Source: Deltaproteobacteria bacterium (lineage in GTDB: Bacteria; Desulfobacterota; Dissulfuribacteria; Dissulfuribacterales; QOAL01). Taken from it: DNA of 44,048 nucleotides. The DNA lies in contig WGBG01000074.1 of the NCBI GenBank assembly GCA_015494395.1, positions 1 through 44,048 on the forward strand, read 5' to 3'. Positions 1 through 6,572 of the stretch are shown piece by piece; position 1 is the first letter of the stretch, and each line of letters begins with the position of its first letter. The notes under the pieces were generated by a model. That model was not told the origin of the DNA and made no database searches. It worked only from the letters and a program-made list of their open reading frames with translations. The translations under genes were made by a program, and so were the position numbers.

Positions 1-3000
1 GTGCTACTATAACTGATGGTTCCAGTGTCAATGTAAATATAGGCATTGCAGGCGATGAAACTGTCGAAACAGATGAACAGTTCCAGGTAACAATAACTAA
101 TCCCTCAGTTTCAGGCAGCTCTGTATCCCCCAACTTAAGTGATGATACAGGGGCAGGCACCATAATTAATGATGACGGTTTTCATGTAAATATCAGTGCA
201 GACAGGAGTAGAATTCTGGAGGATGAAGGTCCGGCTACATTTACTGTCAATATTACTAATCCTGTTGAGTGGGATGCAAATGTTTCATATATTTTGGGTG
301 CTGCCGGGGATGATGCCACAGAGGGGGCTGGCAATGATTATCAGGATGCAGGCGGCTCACCCCTGATATTTTCTGCAGGGGAGACATCCAAGACTATAAC
401 CGTTAACCTGATTAATGATGAAATTCATGAGGGTAATGAGACTTTTACCGTAACTTTAACGGGTATAATACCAGATACGAATGGTACCATAGGTACGTCG
501 TCTGCCAATATTACAATAATTAATGATGACCATAATATTGTAATGACTGCAGATAACGCAAGCAGGATTGAAACTGCTTATGGTCCTGGATATTCCGCAA
601 GTGATAATAGCACAACATTTGTTGCTGCGCATGATTCCACTCCGTCTTTATCCATGTCAATAACCGATTCATGCTATCATATCGCTGATTTTACGGTGGA
701 TGGCGTGTCCAAGGGTAAATTATCTGATTATGCCAATCCTAACGATTACACTTCTGATACGTATGCATTTGATCCTGTAAAAACTGATCATACGATAGGC
801 GTTACCACTGACATTAATACATATTCAGTGAATGCTACTGTCCTGGAGGAGGCTCACGGTACTGTTTCATCATCTGATACCTTTGATTGTACTCATATGG
901 GAGGCCCAACATATACAGCCCAGGCTGATACAGGCTATCATATTACCTGGTTCAAGGTAGATGACGTGGAAGAGAGTGATGCCAAAGGAGAGGAATCATA
1001 CTCTTATACCTTTCCCAAGATAAGTGATGACCACAACATAGAAGTCGCGTTTACCCAGATGATTTATATAGATAATGATTCTCCCTTCGGAACGGTAACG
1101 CCAGAAGGGAATACCACTGATGATACACTACCGCATGTAGAAGTCGATTATGATGATAATCAGACTTTTACTGTCCAGGCTTTCTCATCATGTCCTGATA
1201 GTCTTACCCATAATGGGAAGCAGCATCATATTTCCAGCATATTATGGGATGGTAATGCCGTTACGGGGGCCAATGGAACAGCATCATATACTTATACCGC
1301 TAAGAACATTACTGAAGAACATACAATTTCTGTTTATTTTACCAGCTTTGTTGACGTGACAGTTCACGGAAACGGTAGCGTAACAGGTGAAGAAGTAGCA
1401 GCAGGAGGGAATGACACTACAGCTACATTTTCAACGAACAGTACCGATTCATTTGAAGTAGATACAAATTCGTCAATTATTTTAACTGCAGTTCCAGACG
1501 AAGGGTATCATGTCAGCAAGGTGAACGCAGACAATACAACCATTGGTCAACCGGAAATATATACATTTTCCAATATGGTGGATCAGGATCATTCCTTTGA
1601 AGTCTGGTTCACCATTGATACTTTTATCATTGAACCAGTATCAAAATTCGGAACCATCTATGAGACGGCTGCCCAAACCACCAAGGCTTCATCCAGAACA
1701 GTTGATTGGGGAAGCAACAGTACATTCTATATAGACCTTGACGATCCTGATCACGCGGTGCTTGGCGTTTTAGTGGATAATGTATCATATCCCATTCCGG
1801 GTGCCGGGAATTCCACTTCTTATGCCGATTTTACCTTTCTAAACAGCGGTGATGACTATCTTGAGGTCAGGTTCACAGATGTTAAGGTAAATCACAGGCT
1901 GGAGGCCCTGGATTATGACAGGACCCCCATTTCCGATGTGCCGCTGGACACTAAATTGAGACCAAAACCCGCCTCACTCATGTTTGTTCTGGATGATTCA
2001 GGCAGCATGGACTGGGAATTTATAACCTCTGAAAATGACGGCAGATACAGTGGCAGGTTATATATCTATTCTTATCCCAGTGCTGTCCGTGCCTACGGGG
2101 ATTACAGTCTGGAGTCTTCAGGAAGACAGGATGAATGGCGTGCCCAGATATCTCACTATAACAAGATGTTTTATAATCCCGAGGTGACATATACGCCTTG
2201 GCCATTCTTTGAGGGATCACAACCCAGTTGTCAACTTCCGCAACCGGCAGCAGATGGCCAGGCCCATGCCAACATATATAGGCCCCGTTTTCATCCATGG
2301 CACAGTCAGGATTGCACAAATGCCTTAAATAAGGCGGATGGCACCGATCCTGATGCTGACGTGAGCAACGCCAGTTGTTCTCAAAATGAAACATTTTATA
2401 TGGATGATACGTTTCTTGGCTTTGACGGGCTGTTGGACACGTCCAACGCTATTGTAGTGGATAATTCCGATGCCGGATTCAGCACCACCGGAAATTGGGG
2501 ATCATCTAGTAGTAGTAATGCTTACAACGGTTCATATCTCTATACTTCCTCAACAAATAAAATAGATAAGGCAATATGGATATTAACAGTTCCTGCAGAC
2601 GGATTGTATCAGCTTGATGCGCGCTGGATATCCTATTATAAGAGGGATAGCAGTGTAAAATATATAATTTCCACTGGTTCCGATACTTATAATAGGTGGG
2701 TCAATCAAAGAAAAAATGGTGGTAAATGGAACAAACTCTTAACCCTGGATCTCAGCGCAGGCGATACCGTCACTGTAACGCTCAGAGACAATCTAAAGAA
2801 AAAATCCTCTGCTTCTGCAGATGCCATCCGTCTAACCCCTGTTAGTGACGCCGTTAACATCATTAACGCCCATTATTTTACATATAACGACGCCAATGGG
2901 AATGGTGAACTGGATTATACAGACAGTGACGGAGACGGACTTTTGGACAGATCAGAGCCTGTAACAGAAGATATATGGCTTGTAAATCTCACCGATCCAA

Positions 3001-6000: not shown

Positions 6001-6572
6001 TCAGCTCTGCTGACCTTGTACCACAGGCCAATCTCGGATGGTGTTTTGACTTGCCGGGCAAAATTGACCTGGATGGTGATGGTGCAGACAATGATGGTGA
6101 TGGTTATGTCGATGAAGATGATGATTCGGACGGCACAATAGATGAAAGGATGCTTGGTGAACGTGTGGTCAATGATACCATTATTCGTGACGGAAAGGCG
6201 ATTATTATCTCATTTGGTATCAGTGGAACCAGGTGTAACGCCGGTGGATACTCCTTTGTAAATGAACGTGATCCAAATAACGGTGGAATGACATATAATC
6301 CTGTTTTTGATCTCAATGGTGACGGCGAAATTGATGAAGAGGACATGGTTTATATATATGCTCCAAATGGTGGCGGCGGCGGTGGAGGTACTACAACTCC
6401 CATTTACGGTATCCCAACGGATAAATCCTACGAAGGACGTTTGTTTAATCCTTCTATATTGAGGAATGAGCCTGTTGAGATGAAGTATTTTAGTACCTCA
6501 GCCGGAGGTATTGCCACAATGACCGAGACATCCGAACGGCGGGGAATATATTTCTGGCGAGAAGTTAAATAA
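1..6572 (+). CDS. pilY1: Giant PilY1/PilC-type type IV pilus tip adhesin (N-terminus outside window): Calx-beta repeats, InlB-like repeats, VWA, golvesin-like insert, PilY1 beta-propeller
   Basis: The frame of ORF 294..6572 stays open from base 3, so the CDS continues beyond the left edge. Calx-beta signatures ([42 protein letters not shown]); VWA MIDAS LDDSGSM at 1992-2009; PilY1 propeller signature [30 protein letters not shown]; C-terminal [20 protein letters not shown] and [12 protein letters not shown], typical of PilY1. Confidence 0.85.
   Translation, partial: [2189 protein letters not shown]

Follow-up and report, generated by a model that had tools for sequence, protein, structure and literature searches.

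The protein encoded at the left edge of the analysed window (the whole stretch of 44,048 nucleotides, contig C74) is probably a PilY1-type tip adhesin of type IVa pili, whose VWA domain displays exchangeable putative ligand-binding heads on a variable stalk. As judged from the sequences, the golvesin module that interrupts this VWA domain represents one of several states of an exchangeable site and not an isolated case, and these pili appear to vary their adhesive target at this slot. Because the module is well defined, can be removed, occupies a fixed site and has a predicted class of ligand, the ligand choice of type IV pili becomes directly testable by deletion or exchange of the module in a laboratory strain. 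To our knowledge, the tip ligands of PilY1 proteins are largely unknown, and the N-terminal half of these proteins is variable and mostly without recognisable domains. The relevant features of the window are the following:

3-6572, + strand: PilY1-type putative tip adhesin, C-terminal 2189 residues (ORF and Pfam; truncated at the 5' end by the edge of the contig)
3-530, + strand: two Calx-beta units, the end of a longer stalk (Pfam PF03160, 1.5e-17, in two stretches)
543-1900, + strand: five divergent InlB-like units (recurring motif and one sub-threshold Flg_new_2 match)
1971-3956, + strand: VWA domain, split by the insert (Rossmann-type strand/helix order in the AlphaFold2 model; MIDAS residues)
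1992-2009, + strand: MIDAS motif DDSGSM (sequence motif)
2451-2837, + strand: Golvesin_C module at insertion site 1, the beta-1/alpha-1 loop (Pfam, 6f2p by sequence, AlphaFold2, Foldseek)
3387-3545, + strand: remaining MIDAS residues, T in GTPLRRG (3387) and D in AMTDGYW (3525) (sequence motif)
4404-5579, + strand: PilY1 beta-propeller (PF05567, 2.7e-46, above the cut-off; P. aeruginosa PilY1 3hx6, 1.1e-44)
5751-5882, + strand: acidic DxNGNGxLDxxED repeats within the C-terminal part (sequence motif)
6605-7057, + strand: small secreted-looking protein of 150 aa adjoining pilY1 (signal-peptide-like start)

The ORF opens at the contig edge without a start codon. The first of its Calx-beta units is partial, the second covers residues 57-176, and the genome search placed one such unit at 171-530. 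In the following region a YHIxxxxVDG-like motif was recognised by eye in five copies, at residues 224, 311, 407, 501 and 583 (window positions 672, 933, 1221, 1503 and 1749), while the sole Pfam match there, Flg_new_2, stayed below the threshold (E=0.0017, 18.7 bits vs a cut-off of 23.6). The original prediction, made from the sequence alone, had read the protein as at least two N-terminal Calx-beta units, about five InlB-like repeats, a VWA domain with a MIDAS motif at 1992 and a PilY1 propeller, with a golvesin-like domain apparently interrupting the VWA at 2448-2850. This reading was borne out, with the InlB-like repeats supported by the motif and not by a profile, the DDSGSM motif located exactly at 1992 and the golvesin match placed by Pfam within a few residues of the claimed borders. 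The propeller carries a calcium motif of the DxNxDxxxD type, DVNFDMKAD, at residues 1744-1752 (window 5232-5258). In one relative (L012:10587-11290), a tandem array of 36-39-base repeats is inserted early in the PilY1 propeller and encodes acidic units of the EDLDGDGHLDV type; its near relative L014 is without this array.

The VWA domain has a complete MIDAS (DxSxS, T, D), and the head of the window protein was not scored by the Pfam VWA models, presumably because of the insert. About 380 residues separate the MIDAS motif from helix alpha-1 (3141). In an AlphaFold2 model of the head spanning residues 639-1346, the secondary structure runs from beta-1 through the MIDAS and the long insert to alpha-1, beta-2 and onward, and by this order the golvesin module belongs to the loop between beta-1 and alpha-1 in a VWA of Rossmann type. 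The module scores 94.5 bits against the Golvesin_C profile (PF25275, 7.2e-27, residues 817-945; gathering score 31.6), and the C-terminal domain of the xanthan lyase 6f2p was found by sequence alone at 8e-13. The golvesin stretch is modelled as a separately folded domain with a pLDDT of about 91-94, and a Foldseek search gave the Paenibacillus xanthan lyase 6f2p as top PDB match and structures of CBM6 (with neoagarohexaose) and CBM35 as the next ones, hence a CBM6/35-like beta-sandwich fold. The putative ligand of the module is most likely a polysaccharide or glycan. The CBMs of the Bacteroides lectins Cbeg4 and Cbeg5, which InterPro lists under the same entry (IPR033803), bind a glycan motif of Gal-GlcNAc-Man-Man in array experiments (PMC9166713), which makes a lectin role reasonable. 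The xanthan lyase C-terminal domain shares Pfam family and fold with the window insert; however, in xanthan lyase and Cbeg4/5 it is a terminal enzyme domain or part of a small lectin, whereas it is an internal VWA insert here. Mineral surfaces had also been proposed as a possible ligand, and nothing in our analysis points there.

Comparison with related proteins makes the interchange at this site visible. Nine relatives came from one scan of a genome collection and more from related genomes; among 28 PilY1 proteins, which were picked by similarity to the window protein so that the frequencies of the states are not unbiased, the slot is occupied by golvesin in 13, by an unrelated sandwich resembling PPC or collagen-binding domains in 14 and by a short linker in one. 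An alignment of 26 heads has one variable block, located between a 'PWP...PTFDL' segment and 'INAHYFTW', with conserved VWA sequence on both sides. Pfam found Golvesin_C in 12 of these 26 heads and PPC (PF04151) in four at E<=0.01 (best 3.9e-6). The PPC-type inserts co-align over their entire length with invariant cysteines; most of them are individually below the Pfam threshold, and the class assignment comes from this alignment and one model of moderate confidence. This model, the separately predicted PPC head of L012, matches the collagen-binding domains of ColH/ColG and the PPC domain of a B. anthracis collagenase (5sv5) with TMt of about 0.7-0.8 and rmsd of about 2.5-2.9. A PDB profile search with the PPC inserts gave weak matches, one of them a collagenase PPC domain (E=0.09), and the same search with the head alignment gave no match.

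Further variation concerns the number and arrangement of the modules. L085 carries two golvesin domains within the slot. In L079 (4952-8890) the golvesin is apparently circularly permuted, with its last strand (VRLNADY...ADAV) coming first, and rejoining the pieces raised the score from 59.8 to 73.2 bits; it is probably a tandem pair that has lost its outer halves. A second insert at a later VWA loop occurs in L080, L082 and L088. Those of L080 (after 'QPVLPIKV') and L082 (after 'TGVLPVKV') align with golvesin like a second arm, while L088 has no Golvesin_C match and its golvesin assignment comes from the alignment alone.

The golvesin module may have a structural role instead of ligand binding. 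We regard it as unlikely that it is just a passive spacer or folding aid and that adhesion is left to the VWA MIDAS or the stalk alone. PPC domains are frequent on secreted peptidases, where they are common non-catalytic appendages that could aid folding or secretion, and the relative with a linker of about 37 residues in the slot (L096) keeps the rest of its protein, both of which would suit such a spacer. On the other hand, both module families include ligand binders, namely glycan-binding CBMs and collagen-binding domains. Moreover, within the clade of the window protein the golvesin inserts are 33-44% identical at 64-70% identity of the scaffold, and this faster divergence is as expected for a surface involved in recognition, although a relaxation of constraint would give the same picture.

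The distribution of the modules over the phylogeny suggests that they moved laterally between PilY1 lineages, as far as can be told from sequence comparison. In a tree of the 28 scaffolds with the insert removed, five state changes are required, of which supported branches enforce three or more, and a golvesin-bearing protein (G006) and a PPC-bearing one (G002) are sisters with a support of 95/93. When long and short PilY1 proteins are paired, the PPC inserts resemble each other more than the scaffolds do in 41 of the 49 pairs, reaching 67% identity compared with about 45%, and this greater closeness across the two lineages points to lateral module transfer. In the insert tree, the long-type PPCs adjoin the short-type PPCs of G018 and G034 by a short branch, whereas the scaffolds are split by long branches. 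It appears rather improbable that the pattern is old and vertical, with both types present early and followed by differential loss instead of swapping. Such a history would be compatible with the insert tree, in which a branch separates the long-type from the short-type inserts, and with the incomplete resolution of the window's clade in the scaffold tree. However, the insert branch between long and short proteins amounts to 0.22 and is thus far below the scaffold branches of 1.17 and 0.54, and within the long lineage the relation is reversed, the PPC insert being always less conserved than the scaffold (mean 76% vs 84%).

Exchangeable heads on a pilus tip adhesin could work as follows. The calcium-binding propeller would dock on the minor-pilin tip complex, and the Calx-beta/InlB-like stalk and the VWA would point outward. 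The VWA would serve as a mount, in which the conserved insertion site just past the MIDAS carries an exchangeable ligand-binding module. In the window protein this would be the golvesin/CBM6-35-like beta-sandwich with polysaccharide or glycan as most likely ligand; in the relatives the site holds a PPC/collagen-binding-like sandwich or a golvesin in tandem or permuted form, or is empty. A change of the module, achieved partly by lateral recombination, would then change what the retracting pilus grips.

Among known systems, P. aeruginosa PilY1, Neisseria PilC and M. xanthus PilY1.1-1.3 resemble the window protein in the C-terminal propeller with its calcium motif, and they also share the N-terminal MIDAS VWA and, as far as the relatives of the window protein show, the minor-pilin operon. 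The window protein and its relatives differ from published PilY1 proteins by the golvesin or PPC module in the VWA, here on a Calx-beta/InlB-like stalk. In a 2026 study on myxobacterial PilY1, the N-terminal conserved domains of fifteen published PilY1 proteins are restricted to VWA and DUF4114 (PMC13190605). M. xanthus PilY1.1 and PilY1.2 are similar to the window protein in that their N-terminal part also contains a presumed sugar-binding domain, but it is another one, DUF4114, for which the same study suggests binding of exopolysaccharide; an interchange at a single VWA slot is absent from the sections consulted of its account of M. xanthus PilY1 (PMC13190605). Our search found no paper joining PilY1 and golvesin, with subscription journals and database architecture pages outside its reach, and none of the PilY1 papers that name a carbohydrate-binding module or Calx-beta concerns this architecture according to its title. 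The VWA-golvesin-PilY1 arrangement may be listed somewhere without comment.

The closest mechanical analogy for how the tip may work, not implying kinship, is provided by RrgA/GBS104, a pilus-tip MIDAS VWA in which most of the sequence variation is concentrated in two inserted arms (PMC7893114). These proteins belong to unrelated sortase pili, and their arms are hairpins or loops instead of whole domains of other families. An assignment of the window protein as RrgA-like sortase-pilus adhesin, with Ig-like D1/D2/D4 domains and a cell-wall sorting signal, was rejected, since its C-terminus is a PilY1 propeller. The VWA of P. aeruginosa PilY1 has been implicated in force sensing (PMC8806160, PMC9210963), and the insert comes after the MIDAS loop; yet it is very unlikely that the module tunes mechanosensing by capping or gating the MIDAS face and setting the force response instead of the ligand choice, because a slot that holds different folds or is empty would be odd for a tuned gate.

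The genomic surroundings in the relatives show the operon fimT/pilW/pilV/pilX-pilY1, and we infer for the window protein a location at the pilus tip in this species and an adhesive role. The 5' part of the gene missing from the window is probably found at the end of C17, the sole other contig of the genome with Calx-beta. This contig terminates within an ORF of 351 aa whose start resembles a signal peptide and which contains Calx-beta units. Four minor-pilin-like genes precede this ORF, and this gene order corresponds to the order upstream of pilY1 in the relatives. No second PilY1 propeller was found in the genome. The ends of C17 and C74 gave no overlap, hence the join of the two contigs is a presumed one, with a gap that probably consists of stalk repeats missing from the assembly; 4-9 Calx-beta stretches occur in three full-length relatives, which are 2664-3301 residues long. 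Downstream, the 150-aa protein at 6605-7057 has no family match and is perhaps the counterpart of PilY2, and most related loci examined have a similar small ORF after pilY1, many of them ending GGVWKN-like. Two PilT/PilU-family ATPase genes in tandem were noted at 31459-33869 of the window. A misplaced contig was considered and rejected, because the nearby ComEC gene shares 83% identity with a same-genus genome and the contig thus looks native. The head of the window pilY1 reaches 74% identity with Desulfobulbaceae MAGs vs about 46-47% with same-genus and most same-family PilY1 proteins, which could reflect lateral acquisition of the whole gene or paralogy of the long and short forms.

Finally, the occurrence of the architecture was assessed in a sample of 395 genomes of the phylum, in which 203 had a PilY1 propeller match and 21 had Golvesin_C. 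Both were combined in one ORF in at least eight genomes (G000, G006, G026, G194, G343, G075, G413 and G360), and in a ninth one (G140) the arrangement is split across two contigs. The golvesin form is also present in a cultured species, Desulfobulbus rhabdoformis DSM 8777 (L008). The original prediction had called the protein an unusual tip adhesin and proposed to search for the VWA-golvesin-PilY1 arrangement across genomes. A PilY1 whose VWA contains a genuine Golvesin_C domain and which has a long stalk of repeats is indeed present, but it is not a one-off given these eight or more genomes and the variable slot. Forty further PilY1 ORFs of the same sample have no golvesin or PPC before the propeller at E<=0.001, hence the slot architecture is confined to one PilY1 subfamily within the sample and is not general. 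The chances stand about even that in this subfamily the post-MIDAS VWA loop, sometimes with a second loop, is a slot for laterally exchanged ligand-binding domains, by which type IV pili would be re-targeted through cassette exchange.

Some of the forty PilY1 ORFs without golvesin or PPC showed other additions. The one of G322 (L143:3-7172) combines a stalk of Calx-beta units with PA14, a domain that may likewise bind carbohydrates, that of L140 combines an InlB repeat with DUF4114, and that of L120 contains bacterial Ig and cadherin-like domains. L120, L132 and L134 share an insert directly after the MIDAS (VSQSRDDxEER...IVGIRFQNVxVPQGATI-like) that is without a Pfam name.
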